DNA of 35,262 nucleotides from IMG/VR virus record IMGVR_UViG_3300027901_000015, positions 1-35,262 of that record; one strand, written 5' to 3'. The stretch is from a virus. Below the pieces are notes generated by a model. That model was not told the DNA's origin. It saw nothing but the letters and a program-made list of their open reading frames with translations, and searched no databases. Positions 2,365 to 30,934 of the stretch are shown here, in pieces. The position numbers and the translations under genes were made by a program. Within the stretch, counting starts at the first letter, position 1, and each line of letters starts with the position of its first letter.

Positions 2365-3141
2365 CTAATCATTAATATAATAATCTTCCCGATTTTCTAT
2401 ATAATTACGACTAACACCTTTTTCAACTTTATATTTATCTAAAGCAAACATCATTTTAATAAGTTCAATATCTTCCATAAATAAATCGGAAGGCATACTA
2501 CAATTAAGTACAGGACTAAAGCCACCAACTAAAAGACCTCTAACTTTACCATCCATAGTAAATACAGGGCCACCGCTATTTCCAGGATGGGCAGCAGAAT
2601 CAGAAGTAAACGCAATTTTCCAGCCATATAATTCTCCTGTCCAAGGGTCACGCATTTCCCAATCTTTATTCAAACCAGATATAATACCTAATGTCACATT
2701 ATTAAAATTTATCTTACCATATGGACTACCAATTATAAAAACAGATTGACCAAGTACACAATCTTTAATACTTCCAAATTTAGCTGGTGTTAATATTGGT
2801 TCATCAACTTTAATAAAACCAATATCATAATCCTTATGTGAAACAGCTTGCACACCATTTATTTTAGTGCCATCATGCAATGTAATCTCATATCTAACAC
2901 CATCAACAACATGACGTGCTGTAGCGATAATATTTTCTGTTAAAGCAACACCTGAACCTTGCCATTGTGGGCATTCTATATGAACAACACTTGGTAATAC
3001 ATCTTGTATTGTATCAGAAAATTTAATAGTAACTGCCGGTTTAGGTAAATAAGATGTTATTGGAAGTACAACTATACTAGAAAATAATACAAATAATACT
3101 ATAATAGACATTAACAACCCTGATTTTTGATTAAATAGCAT
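2365..3141 (-). CDS. Membrane-anchored trypsin-like (HtrA-type) serine protease
   Basis: A 258-residue protein predicted to hydrolyse peptide bonds outside the cytoplasm or at the membrane. Residues 8-30 form one hydrophobic segment, a signal anchor or uncleaved signal. A chymotrypsin-fold protease follows with all three catalytic residues: His77 in ATARHVV, Asp106 in DYDIGFIKV and Ser189 in HPGNSGGPVF. The oxyanion GNSGGP and the GS-PYG strand (139-142) are typical of DegP/HtrA proteins, but no PDZ domain follows; the tail after about residue 225 is short and charged. It lies directly downstream of the portal gene, where phages often encode a prohead protease, but those are usually of other folds and are soluble. 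It could be a prohead protease, an anti-host factor or an envelope-acting enzyme. Confidence 0.88.
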   Translation of the reverse strand: MLFNQKSGLLMSIIVLFVLFSSIVVLPITSYLPKPAVTIKFSDTIQDVLPSVVHIECPQWQGSGVALTENIIATARHVVDGVRYEITLHDGTKINGVQAVSHKDYDIGFIKVDEPILTPAKFGSIKDCVLGQSVFIIGSPYGKINFNNVTLGIISGLNKDWEMRDPWTGELYGWKIAFTSDSAAHPGNSGGPVFTMDGKVRGLLVGGFSPVLNCSMPSDLFMEDIELIKMMFALDKYKVEKGVSRNYIENREDYYIND

Positions 3142-3143
3142 TA

Positions 3144-4934
3144 TTAACTCCTTATATAATTAGGCGGTGAGCTTTGTCCACCTGCTCTATTCTGCTGTTG
3201 ATTAAGATTAGCTAAACGACTCATTGGTGATGCACCAAAAAAGTCATTCATTTGTCCAGGGCTTCTACTAGCATTCTGAGGACTATTTCTCATTGGCATC
3301 ATTGTATATGGTACAGATTCCATTTCGTGTGGCACTCCAGTTTTATAAAATTGATTAAAGTTTTCAAACCCACCATACTCAGCTATAATTCTTGTGAGTA
3401 GTGGTATATCAATTTGTGCTCCTTGTGCCATAGCTAACTGCATGGTAGGTATAAGCCATTGTACACCAAATCCAAGCATCTTTTGATATTTAACTTCTGG
3501 ACTTTCTCGTTGCATAGAGAATGGAATAAGGTCATAAATAAAATCATTAAACTCACCTACTCTATCAGCAGAGGAATATACTGCTGGCATTGAACCATAG
3601 CCAGGTATTTCACGTATTACAGGTGTGTATGATAATGGATTATACATATAATCCCAAACAAACTTCTTTACAATAGATGTAGTAAAAGCATCAAATCTAT
3701 TCAAGAAATTACGTATAATTCTTGTAGCATTATTAAATAACATTTGCTCCTGTCCTAATGTAGGAGCTTGAGCATTTCTACCACCAAGAATATCAGGATT
3801 ACCACCTTGTTTAGTAAACTCTCTTTCAGCAAATTCCATCCAAGCGAGATTAGCCTCACTCATACCATTATATTCTACTTCTTTTAATGACCCAATATTA
3901 TTTACACGAACACTTCCAAGATTAGGTGTATTAACTATACGCTCTACATCATCCTTAGCAGCATCTTCATAAGCTAATACAGTCTTTTGATTCTCAGCTT
4001 GTTCACGACTTTTATCAAATACTCTATTCATAGTAACATCTAAGTCATGCCAAGCCCAAGCAGGTGGTAGAGGAATAGGAGATTCTGACATCCACTTATA
4101 ACCAAGATAGTCATACGGCCCACCTTCCGGCCCTTTCCATTCTACTTCTCGTAATATCTTAGCTTTCTTTCCTTCTGGCATTATTGTTACTATAATATTT
4201 TCATCATAAAGATAAATATCCATAAAAGTTGTTTGGTCATAAATGCCAAACTTAGCTCTATCTTGATTATATTTTGCTATATCTTCTGGTGAATAATCTT
4301 GTATTAATTTGCCATCGGGTTTTATGTAATCCGCTATTTCATTACCAAACTTATCTTTACCAGCAAAAAATTCCTGTGCATATTTAGTTGGCAGTCTATA
4401 AATATCACCTTCCATTGTAAAATCAACACGTCTTTTTGCAGCAGGGTCTCCAATATAATTAGCATCGTCTATAACAACAACAGAAGGTTTTCCAGTTTTA
4501 ATAGAACCACCCTCTTCAAGTCTAATATTACCACTATGAGTCAACATAGTACGAACAATGCCAGCACCAAACATAGAATTAAGAGCAGCAGGAATAAGAG
4601 CTTTTTCTGCTATATTAAATGAGTCTAAATAATAATTAATAGCAAGTTGAGTAATATAAGCCCAAGGTCTATAATTAGCTACTTTAGTTGTTACCAAAAA
4701 TCGTGGATTACCTTCCACAAGAAATGGTACTGTAGTATCTACACCACGGCCTATTAAATTAATTGTATGATACGGGTATGCCCTATCTTCATAATAACCC
4801 GAAGCCCAACTATTAAACATCTTTAGACGTTTCTTCAAAGTAGGTTCTGTAATTATTTTCCAAGACTTTTGAGCTTTTTGCAACCTTCTAGGGAAACTTA
4901 GCTTTTTATTTTGTTCTTCTAATATATTTGCCAT
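3144..4934 (-). CDS. Portal protein
   Basis: A 596-residue protein immediately downstream of the large terminase and overlapping it by one base. Length, position and sequence character (an N-terminal WASGYYEDRAYPYHTINLIGRG-type helix, a central mixed alpha/beta wing, a long helical stem around residues 360-420 with NPDILGGRNAQAPTLGQEQ, and a Gln/Asn/Pro-rich C-terminal tail) fit the dodecameric portal through which DNA enters the head and which docks the terminase. The assignment rests on gene order and on the portal-like stem region. The tail after about residue 540 looks disordered. Confidence 0.8.
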   Translation of the reverse strand: MANILEEQNKKLSFPRRLQKAQKSWKIITEPTLKKRLKMFNSWASGYYEDRAYPYHTINLIGRGVDTTVPFLVEGNPRFLVTTKVANYRPWAYITQLAINYYLDSFNIAEKALIPAALNSMFGAGIVRTMLTHSGNIRLEEGGSIKTGKPSVVVIDDANYIGDPAAKRRVDFTMEGDIYRLPTKYAQEFFAGKDKFGNEIADYIKPDGKLIQDYSPEDIAKYNQDRAKFGIYDQTTFMDIYLYDENIIVTIMPEGKKAKILREVEWKGPEGGPYDYLGYKWMSESPIPLPPAWAWHDLDVTMNRVFDKSREQAENQKTVLAYEDAAKDDVERIVNTPNLGSVRVNNIGSLKEVEYNGMSEANLAWMEFAEREFTKQGGNPDILGGRNAQAPTLGQEQMLFNNATRIIRNFLNRFDAFTTSIVKKFVWDYMYNPLSYTPVIREIPGYGSMPAVYSSADRVGEFNDFIYDLIPFSMQRESPEVKYQKMLGFGVQWLIPTMQLAMAQGAQIDIPLLTRIIAEYGGFENFNQFYKTGVPHEMESVPYTMMPMRNSPQNASRSPGQMNDFFGASPMSRLANLNQQQNRAGGQSSPPNYIRS

Positions 4935-6988
4935 TAGTACCTATATACCCTAAGCTCTCGCTTTTCTTTATCTTGTTCTTCTTTCCATTTTCTAAATCTA
5001 TATTCAAAACTATTAGTAGGTGGGTTTTTATATTTCTTTAAGTCTGCAGGTTTCATTTCATTCATAGCTAGTATACACAATCCAGTGGCTATAACTCTAT
5101 CTCCATGAGCATAACGAGCACCAGATTCATCTGTGATAGAATTAGATAAATCAACATCTATGCGACCTGGCATAAAGATATAATCTTCTAATTCATTTAT
5201 CAATGCTCCATCATGTATTATAATATATCTATATAACTTTTCAGATTTAATACTCTCTGTTAATGCAGCATTAAAGTGACTCAACATATCCATCTTTGAG
5301 CCATTAACTCCAGGTGTACTTCTCCAACCTCTATTTTGACTTCTACGCCTAGTTATTCTTCTTTCATTAACATTAATATAAACTCTATGATAACCAAGTT
5401 TTGTTATTCGCTTATCAAATGTGTCACCTGGCCCGTTAGCTTCCCATATAAGATAAGCATCACCTAACCACTTACATATAGCAACAGCTAATTCTGCTAA
5501 ATCTGTAACATCAATAAATGGATTAACATATAAACCTATTAACTCACTTCTATTAACATCACAAATCGATATAACAGAATTAGAAGCTCCAGTACCTCTT
5601 GATATATCACAAGCAACAATATAATTATGTTTTGTATCAGCAAACCCCTTAGCTGTTCCATCTTCTTGTGGTATCATTATCATCTTACCCCACCACTTTA
5701 GATGATGATTAATACCAGATTGAGTAAAATAAGGCTTTGTAATTATATTGTTATTATTCGTATATTTTATATCACCTATATATGTAGGCTCACATTCATA
5801 TATACTTCTAAGTTTATGAATAGTAGCTTCATCAAAAAACATATCAGCAGAACCCTGTGGGATTCTTAATACGTTTTGAGCTAAGTCTGTTTTACTTCGT
5901 CCCCTTGCTTCTTGCTCATCATACCAGATACTTCTATCTCTCTTAAAATTAGTTTCACCACCATCAGCTACAAAATTAATATCTTTACATTTCTCATAAA
6001 CTTCATCAGGTAAATCTTTTATCTTTTTCTGAAATTCACTATAAGAAAAAGATTGATGTTTATTTATGTCATTAAAAACTTCTGGACAAATTCTTCTATA
6101 ATAATTTATATCTTTAATTTCAATAATATCTTCTAAAGGCGACCAGTATAATCCAGCGTTCTTTTCAGGGTTATCTTCGAAACCAAGAGTAATAGTAGTA
6201 ACACGGTTGCTTCGTAACAAACGTGCATAAGGGTGTCCACTACCCCATCTAAAATGAGTAGAGTTATATATACAACAGGGGCTAACATCTTGAATATTAT
6301 CAATGATATATTGTGCCACGTCTGGCTCGATACGTGCGACTTCATCGACAAGAACAGCAGTAGCCCTATCACCAGCACCCATTGACTCATTAGTAGATTC
6401 ACCGCCTATCATACTATTATTGTTAAGGTTCTGTAATGAACAGTGGGTCTTTAGAAAATCAACCTGTACCCAAGCAGGAAGATTAACTATACCATACATT
6501 ATTTTATGAAATAAAGATTTGTGAAGTCCAATCAAAACTCCATTTTTGTAATTAACTGACTTATCTACAAAATCTTCTTTACGTGAACTAACTAAAAAAT
6601 ATACGTCAGGTCGCAACCACCAGTATAATGCAAACATCTTACAGATAACTTCTGTTGCACCTTCATCACGACTCTTATCTATAAGTAAATTATGCTCATT
6701 ATCAATAGCATCTTTTATTCCATCAACCATAATAGATTGTTTTGGTCTAAGAATAAAAGGATTGTTTTGATAGCCAGGTGGCTTTCTTGGGTCATATGTC
6801 CACAATGCTGTATTAAAAGCAATCTGTGGCTTTATATCACACATCTCCATATAATCTTTCTGAGCTTCCTTATCATCAGCAAGAACAGAATGCAATTCCA
6901 TACGAAACTTTATATTTTCTTTTAGGTCTGATGGAATTATTTTTAAGAAATCTTCTGGTGTAGTTATTTTAGATAAAGTTAATGTCAT
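4934..6988 (-). CDS. terL: Terminase large subunit
   Basis: A 684-residue packaging motor. The N-terminal ATPase has a Walker A-like loop at 104-112 (DKSRDEGAT) and a Walker B strand ending Asp215-Glu216 (AVLVDE), which would power DNA translocation into the prohead. The C-terminal RNase H-fold nuclease has Asp461 in VACDISRGTG, Glu516 in LIWEANG and Asp630 in ARYAHGDRV, the usual metal-binding acidic triad. It overlaps the small subunit by four bases upstream and abuts the portal downstream. Length is within the range for large terminases, and no defect is visible. Confidence 0.95.
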   Translation of the reverse strand: MTLTLSKITTPEDFLKIIPSDLKENIKFRMELHSVLADDKEAQKDYMEMCDIKPQIAFNTALWTYDPRKPPGYQNNPFILRPKQSIMVDGIKDAIDNEHNLLIDKSRDEGATEVICKMFALYWWLRPDVYFLVSSRKEDFVDKSVNYKNGVLIGLHKSLFHKIMYGIVNLPAWVQVDFLKTHCSLQNLNNNSMIGGESTNESMGAGDRATAVLVDEVARIEPDVAQYIIDNIQDVSPCCIYNSTHFRWGSGHPYARLLRSNRVTTITLGFEDNPEKNAGLYWSPLEDIIEIKDINYYRRICPEVFNDINKHQSFSYSEFQKKIKDLPDEVYEKCKDINFVADGGETNFKRDRSIWYDEQEARGRSKTDLAQNVLRIPQGSADMFFDEATIHKLRSIYECEPTYIGDIKYTNNNNIITKPYFTQSGINHHLKWWGKMIMIPQEDGTAKGFADTKHNYIVACDISRGTGASNSVISICDVNRSELIGLYVNPFIDVTDLAELAVAICKWLGDAYLIWEANGPGDTFDKRITKLGYHRVYINVNERRITRRRSQNRGWRSTPGVNGSKMDMLSHFNAALTESIKSEKLYRYIIIHDGALINELEDYIFMPGRIDVDLSNSITDESGARYAHGDRVIATGLCILAMNEMKPADLKKYKNPPTNSFEYRFRKWKEEQDKEKRELRVYRY

Positions 6989-13245: not shown

Positions 13246-14001
13246 GTGAAAAAATACTATAAATTGACAGACCAAAATATGCAAACTTTTGGGGGTTTTC
13301 AATGGGAAGTTGGAAAGTGGGTTGAAGCTAAGGGCGACTTCAATAAACCGCTATGTTCTAATGGTTGGTTACACTGTTATGAATCACCTTTGTTAGCGGT
13401 GTTACATAATCCTATACACGCTGATATTAAAAATCCACGATTATTTGAGGTTGAAGTAAGGGGCAAGAGTAAATTCGATAAACAACTGAAATGTGGATTT
13501 CGTAAAATGAGACTTACAAAGGAAATACCACTACCTAAAATTACTATAAACCAAATAACGGCCTATGGGATTTTATGTGCTAAAAATAATTACAAAAATG
13601 GCACATGGATTAAATGGGCTAATGATTGGTTAAGTGGAAAGGACAGAAGCAGAGTTGCTGCTTGTGTTGCTGCTGATGCTATTTATGCTGCTTGTGTTGC
13701 TGCTGCTGCTAATGCTGCTACTTATGGTTATGATGTTGCTACTTATGCTGCTAGTGCTGCTGCTTGTGTTGCTGCTGATGCTGCTCATGGTGCTGCTTGT
13801 GCTGCTGATGCTGCTATTTATGCTGCTGATGCTGCTGCTTATGGTTATGATGTTGCTACTTATGCTGCTGATGCTGTTGCTGAGGCTGCTACTTATGCTA
13901 CTTATGCTGCTAATGCTGCTGCTTGTGTTGCTGCTGATGCTGCTCATGCTCATGTTATTAACTTGATTAAAATAGCAGAACAAGCTATAAAAATAATATA
14001 G
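13246..14001 (+). CDS. DUF7666-type protein with long alanine-repeat tail (GTG start)
   Basis: A 251-residue protein. Residues 1-130 match a domain recalled from many phages and prophages: YKLTDQNMQTFGGFQWEVG, GWLHCYESPLLAVLHNPIHAD, RLFEVEVRGK and WANDWLSGKDRS. Its function is unknown. From residue 135 to 240 the chain is mostly Ala with Tyr, Asp and Cys, coded by GCT-rich repeats, including two copies of TYGYDVATYAA or AYGYDVATYAA 39 residues apart. The start is GTG with AAAGGG upstream. The tail is probably helical and variable in length between relatives. Confidence 0.75.
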   Translation: MKKYYKLTDQNMQTFGGFQWEVGKWVEAKGDFNKPLCSNGWLHCYESPLLAVLHNPIHADIKNPRLFEVEVRGKSKFDKQLKCGFRKMRLTKEIPLPKITINQITAYGILCAKNNYKNGTWIKWANDWLSGKDRSRVAACVAADAIYAACVAAAANAATYGYDVATYAASAAACVAADAAHGAACAADAAIYAADAAAYGYDVATYAADAVAEAATYATYAANAAACVAADAAHAHVINLIKIAEQAIKII

Positions 14002-14250: not shown

Positions 14251-15345
14251 ATGAGAAGCAACCATATAGATAGTGATTTATTAAAGTGTGATAATTGCAA
14301 TAAACTAAAAGACGGAGATTTTTATGTAGTGTATAATAGGGCTTACCAATCTACAGAAGTTTGTGAAGATTGCCTTGATACTTATTATACTTATTGTGAT
14401 TGCTGTTGTGACTATTACGAAAATAATTATGTAGAATACTATAATGATATATCACGGTATTTGTGTACTGATTGTTTAGATAATAGTTATTTTACCTGTG
14501 AGAGTTGTGGTGCGTTACAGCCTAATTATAATTATGGTGGTAGTTGCTCTAGTTGTGGTTATTCCAGTGAATATTGCGAGTGTAATTATCACTATGATTT
14601 TAAGTTTCATAGCACTAATCATGAAACAAGGTATAATGGTAATATACTATATTATGGTATTGAGTTAGAAGTTGGTTCATTTGAGCATACTGATAGTGTA
14701 TTGAGTGTGATTCGTAAATGGAGTCCTGAGTATGCTATGGTAACAGAGGATTGTAGTATATATGATAATCACGATGTAAGATGTGGTGGTGAAATAGTCA
14801 TGCAACCATGTACGTACAATTGGTATATAGATAATAAACAGCAAATAAAAGATATGTTTAGTAGACTAAAAGACGCTGGCTATAGAAGTTATAAAACTGG
14901 AAGTTGTGGAATTCATATACATATGTGCAAAGACGCTTTTAGTACAAACCATCTGTATAAATTTATTAAAATGATTTATGAACACAGAGAATTTACAGAG
15001 TTTGTGAGCCAGCGTAATGGTCGTGGGATGAATTGGTGCAAACTAAGTAATGAAAATAATGAAGATTCATATAAATATAAAGCTGAAAATAAGAGTAGCA
15101 ATGATAAATGCTCTGCTGTAAATTTGATACACAATAAAACTTTAGAAGTTAGGATATTTAGAGGGACATTAAAATTTAGTAGTTTCTATAAGAATATACA
15201 ATACTTACATTCATTATTTGAATTTACCAAAGAAGTAAAGAAAACGGATTTGGCTCTTGATAATTACTTGAAATTTATATCGTTAAATAAAGATAGATTT
15301 GAATATTTATATAATTGGTTGAAAGAAAAGGGTAGGATACAATGA
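14251..15345 (+). CDS. Amidoligase-like protein 1 with N-terminal zinc fingers
   Basis: A 364-residue protein. Residues 13-112 carry many CxxC pairs (CDNC, CEDC, CDCC, CTDC, CESC, CSSC), enough for several zinc ions. The C-terminal half fits the Amidoligase_2 family, distant relatives of glutamine synthetase/gamma-glutamylcysteine ligase that join an amine to a carboxylate with ATP: YYGIELEVG (135-142) with metal-binding Glu, GGEIVMQP (179-186), CGIHIHM (219-225) and a late EVRIFRGT. AGGT precedes the ATG. It is the first of two paralogues, followed by a class II amidotransferase. The substrate is unknown; the zinc region may dock a protein or nucleic acid. Confidence 0.75.
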   Translation: MRSNHIDSDLLKCDNCNKLKDGDFYVVYNRAYQSTEVCEDCLDTYYTYCDCCCDYYENNYVEYYNDISRYLCTDCLDNSYFTCESCGALQPNYNYGGSCSSCGYSSEYCECNYHYDFKFHSTNHETRYNGNILYYGIELEVGSFEHTDSVLSVIRKWSPEYAMVTEDCSIYDNHDVRCGGEIVMQPCTYNWYIDNKQQIKDMFSRLKDAGYRSYKTGSCGIHIHMCKDAFSTNHLYKFIKMIYEHREFTEFVSQRNGRGMNWCKLSNENNEDSYKYKAENKSSNDKCSAVNLIHNKTLEVRIFRGTLKFSSFYKNIQYLHSLFEFTKEVKKTDLALDNYLKFISLNKDRFEYLYNWLKEKGRIQ

Positions 15346-15554
15346 TATTTATAGATGTAGATAGAATGGTTGATTCTTCTATTCATATTAACGATTTAAG
15401 AAGATATTTATGTGATGATAATGTAGGCTATGTACAAATGACAGCACGTATGTTACATACTTTTTATGGGTTGCCATACAGTAAAAAGTGTGAAAAAGAT
15501 TATAAAAACTACGATTGGTTTGAGAGGGTAAAGAAATTTCTTGAGGTACTTTAA
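15342..15554 (+). CDS. Hypothetical 70-residue protein between the two amidoligases
   Basis: It overlaps both neighbours by ATGA-type junctions (15342-15345 and 15554), so it is translated with them. It has an acidic, helical sequence with LRRYLCDDNVGYVQMTARMLHTFYGL and no obvious catalytic motif. Its fixed place inside the amidoligase locus suggests a shared process, perhaps as a small partner or substrate. No family recognised. Confidence 0.65.
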   Translation: MIFIDVDRMVDSSIHINDLRRYLCDDNVGYVQMTARMLHTFYGLPYSKKCEKDYKNYDWFERVKKFLEVL

Positions 15555-16786
15555 TGATAGTATTAGAATATACTAATTGTGTAATATGCAATACTAATAT
15601 AAATTTATCTAGCGCATGGTCACATTATATAGTTAATACTACATACATTAGAGATGAAGAATTACATGAGAGTTTCAAGGGGTATAAAGAGAATGAAAGT
15701 AATCATGCACTGGGATATGTTTGTGTACCTTGTTATAATGAGTTAATGAGGCCATTACTATCTGATAGAGAACGTTATTCATTACAATCTATGTTGGGAT
15801 ATTTTAACTGTCAGCGGTGTCAAGGAGAAGTTAGTATTCATTGTATGCGACAAGATGATAATGAAATTGTATGTATTGACTGCTTCTCTATCAATCATTG
15901 GTCATGTTATCATTGTAATGAATGGTTTAATAGTGATATAGAATATTATGAAGGCGATACAATCGGAGCACAATTTTGTGAAGATTGTTGGTCAGAAAGA
16001 CAACGTAGAGACTTCATAAAACCGTATGATTATATACCTAATAATCACAACTTCTATAAAGAAGATAATGAATATAGAAATTTGCTATACTTTGGGATTG
16101 AATTAGAAATTGAAGCTAATGATAATGATAAATATTTATTTGCTGCTCAATTACCAGATTTTGTATACGCTAAATCCGATGGAAGTTTATATAATGGGTT
16201 TGAAATTGTATCACATCCTACCAGCTATAGATGGTTAATGAAAAATAAAGAAAAATGGAATGAATTATTATGTTGTAGAAAACGAGGTTACCGCAGTTTT
16301 AATACGGATACTTGTGGTATGCACGTACATATGAGTAAAAATGCATTCGGAAATCATCACTTATATAAATTTATGAAGTTATTTTATAATAATCCTCAAT
16401 TAATATATAAAGTTAGTCAGAGAAAAACGAAAAAAAATTTGGATAGGTGGGCACAGTTAAAGCCTACTGTACCATTAAAAAAGGTAGCAAAATATAAAAG
16501 TATGTATAACCACGATAATAGATATACAGCTATTAGTTTATATAATCATCCTACAATTGAAGTTAGAGTATTTAGAGGTACATTACATCCACCATCATTT
16601 TGGAAAAACATAGAGTTTTGTAAGTGTGTTTATGAATTTTCATATAACAATAATGAGAAATATATGACTGAGCTCAATTTCAGAAAATATGTTAAGATAA
16701 ATAAATCAGAATTTCCTAATTTGTATTCATTTTTATATAGTAGTGAAAGTAAGATTGAGACTGAGAAATTAATGATTGATTGTTAA
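15554..16786 (+). CDS. Amidoligase-like protein 2 with N-terminal zinc fingers
   Basis: A 410-residue paralogue of the upstream protein. Cysteine pairs at 57/60, 86/89, 107/110, 118/121 and 142/145 form the N-terminal zinc part. The ligase half repeats the landmarks: LLYFGIELEIE (178-187), KSDGS (207-211), GFEIVSHP (215-222), GYRSFNTDTCGMHVHM (245-260) and TIEVRVFRGTLHPPSF further on. Conservation of Glu and His at equivalent places suggests both copies are active. The two proteins differ widely outside these motifs, so the duplication is old and each may have its own substrate. Confidence 0.75.
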   Translation: MIVLEYTNCVICNTNINLSSAWSHYIVNTTYIRDEELHESFKGYKENESNHALGYVCVPCYNELMRPLLSDRERYSLQSMLGYFNCQRCQGEVSIHCMRQDDNEIVCIDCFSINHWSCYHCNEWFNSDIEYYEGDTIGAQFCEDCWSERQRRDFIKPYDYIPNNHNFYKEDNEYRNLLYFGIELEIEANDNDKYLFAAQLPDFVYAKSDGSLYNGFEIVSHPTSYRWLMKNKEKWNELLCCRKRGYRSFNTDTCGMHVHMSKNAFGNHHLYKFMKLFYNNPQLIYKVSQRKTKKNLDRWAQLKPTVPLKKVAKYKSMYNHDNRYTAISLYNHPTIEVRVFRGTLHPPSFWKNIEFCKCVYEFSYNNNEKYMTELNFRKYVKINKSEFPNLYSFLYSSESKIETEKLMIDC

Positions 16787-16804
16787 TGAAAGGGTAAATA
16801 ATTA

Positions 16805-17962
16805 ATGTGTATTATAGTTGTAAAACCAGCTAAAGCTATTATCACAAGAAAAACATTAAAAACTTGTTATGATTCCAATTCAGATGGTGCAGGTATGATG
16901 TTTGCAACTGGTGGAAAGCTGTTTGTAGATAAAGGATATTTTAGCTTCCGTAGATTTTACAAACAATTTAGAGAACATGAAAGAGCATATCCTGATAGTA
17001 ACTTTGTATTACATTTTAGAATAGCAACAAGTGGTGGTATAAGACCTGATACTTGCCACCCATTTTATGTTCACAAAAATTTAGCCTTTGCTCATAACGG
17101 AATATTATCTAGATTAGGTACTAAAGATAAATCAGACACTATGGTATTTAATGAGACTATTTTACAACTATTGCCACCTAACTTTTTAGATATGGACAAG
17201 GCAAAAAATGCTATCGAAGATTATATAACTACATCATTGTCTAAAGTCGTTTTTATGGATAACGCAGGAAAATTAACCATAATGAATGAGAAAAACGGAC
17301 ATTGGGATAATGAATGTTGGTTTTCTAATTACGGTTATTATAATTACACAAGAAGTGGACGTTATGATTATATCTTAAACGGACAAGATTGGTATGATAC
17401 ACACATTAATTATGCTGATATTTCTGCACATACTTTCAAAAAATGTATTGTATGTTCTTGTCAATCTCATAGAGATACTGTTATATGGAAATCGAATATT
17501 AAAGTATATAGTGAAATTAAATCTGGATGGGTGTGTAATTTTTGTCTAGATTATTATGTTAATTCAAAGTATAATTGTGCAGGTTGTGGTGAAAGCTTTA
17601 ATAGAACCATGTTAACAAGAAATATATATGGTGAATATATATGCGATGATTGTCTTTTGATAAATGGACAACATATAGACACTAACAACGCCACCGATTT
17701 CAAATGTTGTATTTGTAAAAGTGAGGATATATACTATAGGGATGAAGATAATTGGTGTTATTGTAAAAAATGTGGTAATGAATCAGGATTATTCGGTGAT
17801 TTACTAAAATATGAGTGCAATACAACAGAAGAAGAAGAACAAACTTCTGTAACAGGTATTTGCATAGTTTGTTCGGCAGATGTAACAAGTTATTATACAG
17901 ATAATTGGAGATGCCCTAATTGTGGTACATATTTAGATATTAACAGTTATGAATCGATATGA
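16805..17962 (+). CDS. Class II glutamine amidotransferase with C-terminal zinc ribbons
   Basis: A 385-residue protein. The N-terminal 200 residues are an Ntn-type glutaminase: Cys2 directly after Met (MCIIVVKP) as nucleophile, HFRIATSGG (70-78), AHNGIL (96-101) and KSDTMVF (109-115), the expected order for releasing ammonia from glutamine. Residues 215-385 hold at least four CxxC pairs in zinc-ribbon form (CIVCSC, CNFC, CAGC, CDDC, CCIC, CKKCG, CIVC, CPNCG). It follows the amidoligases with AAAGGG before its ATG; ammonia from it could feed an amide-forming ligase. The zinc ribbons parallel those on the ligases and may bring the three proteins to one target. Confidence 0.82.
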   Translation: MCIIVVKPAKAIITRKTLKTCYDSNSDGAGMMFATGGKLFVDKGYFSFRRFYKQFREHERAYPDSNFVLHFRIATSGGIRPDTCHPFYVHKNLAFAHNGILSRLGTKDKSDTMVFNETILQLLPPNFLDMDKAKNAIEDYITTSLSKVVFMDNAGKLTIMNEKNGHWDNECWFSNYGYYNYTRSGRYDYILNGQDWYDTHINYADISAHTFKKCIVCSCQSHRDTVIWKSNIKVYSEIKSGWVCNFCLDYYVNSKYNCAGCGESFNRTMLTRNIYGEYICDDCLLINGQHIDTNNATDFKCCICKSEDIYYRDEDNWCYCKKCGNESGLFGDLLKYECNTTEEEEQTSVTGICIVCSADVTSYYTDNWRCPNCGTYLDINSYESI

Positions 17963-30445: not shown

Positions 30446-30934
30446 ATGGATATGACATACTTAATACAACCGCCTAAAAGATGGACATTTGAGCAGCCTA
30501 AATTAAAGCAATGGGTTGAATCGTGGTGTGGTGGTAATATATTAAATCTATTTGCTGGTAAAATAAGGCTTAATGTACCTGAAACAAGAGTAGATATTAG
30601 TGGAGAATTTAAGCCTGATTATATTTCTGATGCTTATGATTTTGTAAATATGGCTATAGATATTAAGTTAAAATTTAATACTATTATATTAGACCCGCCA
30701 TACAATCTACGTAAAGCAAGAGAAAAATATAACGGTAAATATATAGGCTCGTTTACTAAGATTAAAAATCTATTGCCACAAATACTTGAGCCTGGGGGCA
30801 GGGTTATTACATTAGGCTATGATACTGTAGGCATGTCTAAAAGCAGAGGGTTTGAAAAAATAGCTATATGTGTAGTCTGTCATAATGGAGACCACAATGA
30901 TACATTATGTGTAGTAGAAAGATTTGTAAAATGA
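30446..30934 (+). CDS. Small DPPY-type adenine-methyltransferase-like protein
   Basis: A 162-residue Rossmann-fold protein. NILNLFAGK (31-39) is the AdoMet-binding loop, RVDIS (48-52) supplies the acidic ribose ligand, and IILDPPYN (80-87) is the catalytic DPPY of amino-methyltransferases. GGRVITLGYD forms a later strand. It lacks the target-recognition domain of a full DNA methylase. It could methylate phage DNA against restriction, or another amino group. TAGGAG precedes the ATG; the TGA overlaps the next start by four bases. Confidence 0.75.
   Translation: MDMTYLIQPPKRWTFEQPKLKQWVESWCGGNILNLFAGKIRLNVPETRVDISGEFKPDYISDAYDFVNMAIDIKLKFNTIILDPPYNLRKAREKYNGKYIGSFTKIKNLLPQILEPGGRVITLGYDTVGMSKSRGFEKIAICVVCHNGDHNDTLCVVERFVK

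Follow-up and report, generated by a model that had tools for sequence, protein, structure and literature searches.

Introduction

A seven-gene cassette of RIO-1/LUZ24/phiEco32-like phages, named the "peptidoglycan modification cassette" and so far assigned a predicted role, encodes two different ligases, a glutamine amidotransferase (GATase), an ATP-grasp protein and a gamma-glutamyl cyclotransferase (GGCT; PMC5498523). OM43 phages also carry the ligase-glutaminase pair (PMC10580990), and superinfection exclusion is its supposed role (PMC10580990, PMC11318856, with Iyer et al. 2009 cited). Here we describe a related set of four genes in IMG/VR record IMGVR_UViG_3300027901_000015, a virus of microbes; the window analyzed is the whole record of 35,262 bases. 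The set encodes two amidoligases (AL1 and AL2), a 70-residue protein and a class II glutaminase (GAT). The pair of ligase and glutaminase is spread widely among phages, one viral collection alone yielding at least 587 relatives of the ligase, and is present in bacterial genomes; no tested substrate for it was found. We consider it best explained as a phage glutamine-dependent amide ligase that amidates a carboxylate, a reading to which we give about an even chance.

In LUZ24 (gp18-gp19) and phiEco32 (gp84-gp83), the same PF12224 ligase and class II GATase are adjacent, in the same order and within a block of replication genes. In the ligases of these phages about 27 residues precede the GIELE-type motif and there is no zinc region, whereas both window ligases have one. 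A second ligase of the glutamine synthetase (GS) type lies beside the LUZ24 pair and belongs to PF14395, while the second ligase of the window is a PF12224 paralogue. No PF14395 match was obtained in the window; control genomes were unmatched too, and LUZ24 gp16 does match this family. The LUZ24/phiEco32 cassette further differs in adding PF14395, RimK-like ATP-grasp and GGCT genes.

Results

AL1 (364 residues; 14251-15345, plus strand) and AL2 (410 residues; 15554-16786, plus strand) each consist of N-terminal Cys4 modules followed by an Amidoligase_2/GS-type domain. Both score above the curated PF12224 cut-off of 22 bits (32.2 bits for AL1, 41 bits for AL2), and both contain the GIELE motif (residues 136-140 and 181-185, respectively) together with the GGEIV/GFEIV and CGIHIH/CGMHVH motifs. 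A preliminary description of this DNA, made from the letters alone, had proposed two such paralogues, and this assignment holds. In an alignment of 61 ligases that includes AL1 and AL2, 14 positions are invariant, among them E183, E185, D209, S211, E217, H257, H259, R290, E336 and R338 of AL2.

An AlphaFold model of AL2 built from 61 relatives has a mean pLDDT of 85. When its ligase domain (residues 172-409; 16067-16780, plus strand), which holds all of the invariant residues named above, was compared with known structures, the matches included YbdK (Z 12.3), plant glutamate-cysteine ligase (GCL; Z 11.6) and many GS structures (Z about 11). PafA and Dop were among the Foldseek matches of AL2 and were weaker than YbdK, GCL and GS. 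Profile alignment placed GMHVHMS and IEVR of the ligase against GMHCHMS and IEVR of Escherichia coli GlnA, residues through which glutamine synthetase binds metal and substrate. The model and the invariant residues agree in predicting a GS/GCL-type fold with intact active sites in both copies, as the preliminary description had supposed. The two refuting conditions named in that description, key residues outside a GS-type site and relatives with the genes apart, were checked and did not refute it.

GAT (385 residues; 16805-17962, plus strand) opens with MC, placing the putative nucleophile at Cys2. Its GATase_4 score is 22.4 bits, against a curated cut-off of 23, and its family profile matches GlmS/PurF. 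The GAT model (pLDDT 77.8) is confident for residues 1-180 and not for the C-terminal ribbons (residues 214-373; 17444-17923, plus strand), which contain 8 CxxC pairs. In structure comparison GlmS and EgtC matched equally well, each with Z 13.9, and Cys2, R72, T75, N98, G99 and D111 are kept in 52-53 of 53 glutaminases. GAT therefore appears, from model and alignment, to be a class II N-terminal nucleophile (Ntn) enzyme of the GlmS/EgtC fold that keeps its glutamine-binding residues; the class II amidotransferase with C-terminal ribbons that had been described at this position is confirmed to this extent. In two close relatives the catalytic Cys codon is preceded by ATC or ATT rather than ATG (L012:6105-6110 and L015:5882-5887), so translation there may begin at a rare AUC/AUU codon, or the enzyme may have a short propeptide.

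Searches of the available collections gave no close relatives of the window genes, and scans of viral contigs with a single protein as query, be it AL1, AL2 or the 70-residue protein, gave no relatives at all. An alignment-based scan of viral contigs returned at least 599 pattern matches, at least 587 of which were confirmed as ligases; an AL1-family scan of viral contigs gave 55 loci and a genome scan 39. All counts of the gene pair, in viral contigs and in genomes, start from the ligase. Two viral scans, one contributing 80 loci and the other 46 on contigs not yet represented, together gave 126 viral contigs. A class II glutaminase gene lies beside the ligase in 125 of them, and the lone exception (L089) is a contig that ends 27 bases past the ligase. 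The tie between ligase and glutaminase that had been proposed from the window is thus upheld, the two being neighbors in all but that one contig of this set. Since the order of the two genes is reversed in five contigs (L128, L132, L135, L136 and L139), the link looks functional rather than a mere inheritance of one arrangement. Among the genome loci the pair is kept in 37 of 39, and one locus (L157) ends just past the ligase.

In Clostridia the pair is also found outside phages, on mobile elements. It adjoins serine recombinase and Fic genes at two loci (L154 and L166) and lies near MobA/MobL, type IV secretion system coupling and integrase genes at a third (L162). Its presence on elements that are not phages favors the cell over the virion as the site of action, and modification of the virion is disfavored because some of these elements are mobilizable. 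Butyricicoccus pullicaecorum DSM 23266 has at least five copies of the pair in one genome (L152, L155, L156, L159 and L162), the last beside a Cas3 gene; the same observation takes in related Clostridia and pair loci L154, L158, L166 and L170. A further contig, JAHPYZ010000033.1 (L149), is binned as Candidatus Lokiarchaeota and carries the pair; its ligase shares 41% identity with AL2, and genes nearby resemble those at 4934-6988 of the window, which are terminase-like by position. The contig comes either from a phage that was binned wrongly or from a virus of archaea. In MW202828.1 (L010:5001-6218) a class II glutaminase is naturally fused to a gamma-glutamyl cyclotransferase. The fusion scores 65.7 bits for GGACT and 22.5 bits for GATase_4, slightly under the cut-off of 23, and a diverged GS-type ligase-like open reading frame (ORF) lies upstream.

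Two ligases are present in 5 of the 126 viral contigs (L012, L015, L043, L131 and L139), and the tandem ligase duplication is the only rare feature of the gene set. The order AL1-AL2-GAT is shared by the window, L012, L015 and L043; in L131 (5917-10217) the order is ligase-glutaminase-ligase-glutaminase, the whole pair being doubled. In a 61-row tree, AL1 of the window, L012, L015 and L043 forms one clade (100/98), with about a third of residues shared between AL1 of the window and its counterparts in L015 and L043. The AL2 copies are not resolved as one clade among neighboring single-copy ligases. AL1 is also marked by a 5-6 residue insertion between the positions of D209 and E217, beside the active-site glutamate. 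Because AL1 is a single clade across four diverged phages, the duplication dates far back and neither copy has since been lost, and the intact sites of both copies argue for two roles. A doubled ligase with zinc fingers had been put forward as not recognized from earlier descriptions. Phages with two different GS-type ligases and a glutaminase are known (PMC5498523, PMC3890496); no tandem of PF12224 ligases was found described in the literature searched. A lineage with two diverged ligases and one glutaminase offers a natural comparison for identifying what the enzymes modify.

The Cys4 modules are shared far beyond this locus. The zinc region of AL1 extends from Cys13 to Cys109 (14287-14577, plus strand), with Cys columns kept in the AL1 alignment, and that of AL2 from Cys9 to Cys145 (15578-15988, plus strand). 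The AL1 N-terminus contains 6 CxxC pairs, against a mean of 1.8 after shuffling of residues (57 of 20,000 shuffles were as high); the corresponding values are 6 against 0.9 for the AL2 N-terminus (1 of 20,000) and 8 against 1.9 for the GAT C-terminus (2 of 20,000). Seven of the Cys positions are kept in 55-60 of the 61 ligases. Ahead of the GIELE motif most ligases have 4-11 CxxC pairs, and in the viral set most glutaminases have such pairs at the C-terminus. A zinc-bearing ligase is the family norm and not a peculiarity of this locus; the zinc-bearing subfamily was not found described in the literature searched. One subgroup (L023 and L026-L042) has lost most of the pairs, and AL2 of L043 is without a zinc region, so the modules are structural rather than catalytic.

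The ligase family profile resembles the tandem LIM domains of PINCH1 (E 2.5e-5), and the zinc region of AL2 has a LIM-like arrangement of Cys pairs. LIM domains of PINCH1 are protein-binding, and the LIM spacing is C-x2-C-x16-23-H-x2-C-x2-C-x2-C-x16-21-C-x2-C/H/D. The spacing in AL2 is C86-x2-C89-x17-C107-x2-C110-x7-C118-x2-C121; a true LIM domain was rejected, as 7 residues separate the two modules where LIM has 2. The C-termini of glutaminases were also compared with the ligase zinc modules; with a threshold of E<0.01, 5 of 30 matched, whereas among 300 shuffles that preserved the Cys residues 4 did. This is weakly suggestive of a common origin for some of the GAT ribbons and ligase modules, and the idea that the enzymes share zinc modules is retained in that limited form.

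The 70-residue gene (15342-15554, plus strand) overlaps AL1 by 4 bases (ATGA, 15342-15345) and AL2 by 1 base (15554), as had been noted earlier. All four ORFs are in place; the run of overlaps that had been attributed to all of them covers the first three and does not extend to GAT, which starts 18 bases past the end of AL2 behind an aaaggg-type ribosome site. The gene is real: codon bias in its frame is 0.156 per codon, compared with 0.16-0.20 in the flanking genes and about 0 or below in the other two forward frames. It is not a general part of the system. The protein had no viral-contig match except for one ORF in L043, which encodes 92 residues between AL1 and AL2 and is a weak counterpart (35% identity over 55 residues, E 0.001, all loci searched), itself without a match in the phage collection. 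The nearest relative, L012, and L015 have no such gene between the ligases or anywhere else on their contigs. A role as general substrate was rejected on this basis, and the suggestion that the small protein is the substrate or a partner is not supported as a general one, two of the three closely related two-ligase phages lacking it and the third having only the weak counterpart.

The four genes begin a plus-strand replication block, all in one direction, which continues with exonuclease-like, SSB-like, DnaB helicase, primase and PolA genes; a terminase small subunit gene and adjoining packaging/structural-like genes are on the minus strand. The position beside replication and recombination genes suggests early expression. 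Defense systems were searched for with PADLOC and gave no match. Among the ORFs scanned, which were not all of those in the window, no hydroxymethylase- or hypermodification-kinase-like gene was seen, and DNA base hypermodification was set aside; a methyltransferase-like gene at 30446-30934 was the sole DNA-modification-like candidate among them. Just upstream of AL1, positions 13246-14001 encode a DUF7666 protein whose long low-complexity repeat is rich in Ala, Tyr and Cys, and another DUF7666 member occurred among the neighbors scanned at other loci. The minus strand at 2365-3141 encodes a trypsin-like serine protease whose N-terminal part includes a hydrophobic segment; the gene adjoins structural-type genes.

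Discussion

If the locus encodes a glutamine-dependent amide ligase, each GS-type ligase would use ATP and Mg to convert a carboxylate to an acyl phosphate, the neighboring class II glutaminase would split glutamine and supply ammonia to the ligase, and a carboxylate of a host molecule would become an amide. The Cys4 modules at the N-termini of the ligases and the ribbons at the C-terminus of GAT may bind the enzymes to each other or to their target. Within this lineage the ligase duplication is ancient, and each copy probably has a carboxylate or partner of its own. A likely purpose would be an early change of the infected host cell, for example of envelope peptides, that excludes other phages.

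Several points weigh against this proposal. One phage of Clostridioides difficile, AR1086-1, has the ligase and no glutaminase anywhere in its genome, and the literature yielded no experiment on these phage proteins. GGCT (PF06094) and RimK-type ATP-grasp (PF08443) domains had no match in the record, with positive controls, although the record may be a fragment. Zinc is not needed for ligase activity, judging from the loss of Cys pairs in relatives. Finally, the conserved class II residues fit a gamma-glutamyl hydrolase as well, as the equal Z scores of EgtC and GlmS illustrate.

This last point leads to the main rival, which we hold possible rather than probable: like YbdK, GCL, EgtA and GmaS, the ligase would join the gamma-carboxyl of glutamate to an amine, and GAT would be a gamma-glutamyl hydrolase like EgtC, so that the pair adds and removes the group or remodels such bonds. 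The best structural matches of the ligase, YbdK and GCL, are gamma-glutamyl ligases, and EgtC ties with GlmS for GAT. The shared fold nevertheless leaves the acyl substrate unfixed. GGCT occurs as a fusion with the glutaminase in MW202828.1, lies beside the pair in phage Kovu and near it in L126 and L137, and belongs to the LUZ24 cassette, and the phage GATase has been read as degradative (PMC5498523); but the window has no GGCT match, and near the zinc-bearing subfamily GGCT is rare (2 loci in a motif search).

Glutamine-dependent amidation also competes with a role in nitrogen or amino-acid metabolism, in which auxiliary metabolic genes would provide glutamine- or glutathione-like metabolites for phage growth. 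This has been proposed for Phage-ZRK32, which has amidoligase, GATase, GGCT and glutathione synthase genes (PMC10945688). We regard it as unlikely here, since housekeeping enzymes for small molecules do not resemble a set with large Cys4 binding modules and two diverged ligases, and the clostridial pair also resides on mobile elements other than phages. Very unlikely, in our judgment, is an elaborate form in which the two diverged ligases constitute a two-step or two-target conjugation machine, with the zinc modules docking ligases and glutaminase on a specific host protein or envelope precursor and the two copies placing different amides; if true, this would be a phage-made post-translational or cell-wall modification of a kind yet to be described. 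Pupylation-like protein conjugation, with zinc modules recruiting a protein to whose carboxylates the ligases attach an amino acid or peptide, perhaps with the 70-residue protein as tag, would fit the PafA and Dop matches and the LIM-like, protein-binding modules, but is highly improbable given that these matches fall below YbdK, GCL and GS, that L012 and L015 lack the small gene and that no conserved tag-like C-terminus is seen.

Amidation by a ligase and a separate glutaminase has a parallel in the MurT/GatD lipid II amidotransferase, which is alike in outline: an ATP-dependent ligase and a separate glutaminase amidate a carboxylate. MurT/GatD combines a Mur-ligase fold with a class I glutaminase, however, and is not homologous to the window pair. 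EgtA/EgtC is nearer in fold, with a GCL/GS-type gamma-glutamyl ligase and a class II-type Ntn hydrolase, EgtC being a top structural match of GAT; EgtC strips a gamma-glutamyl group rather than supplying ammonia, and neither protein has zinc modules. Among phages, MEP401 (gp05-06) and MEP402 (gp06-07) of Methylophilales carry an adjacent PF12224 ligase and GATase (PMC10580990). Their glutaminases are 46% and 42% identical to GAT over the aligned part, but each phage has one ligase, with a longer N-terminus bearing two CxxC only, and the glutaminases lack ribbons. In the Marvin-type mycobacteriophages (gp105-106), too, ligase and GATase are adjacent, with CxxC pairs in the N-terminal part of the ligase and the C-terminal part of the GATase; both products bear the annotation of a glutamine amidotransferase domain protein, and these phages differ from the window in having one ligase. 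The ligase-glutaminase pair of the window is of a known kind, and its tandem of PF12224 ligases is a variant of it.

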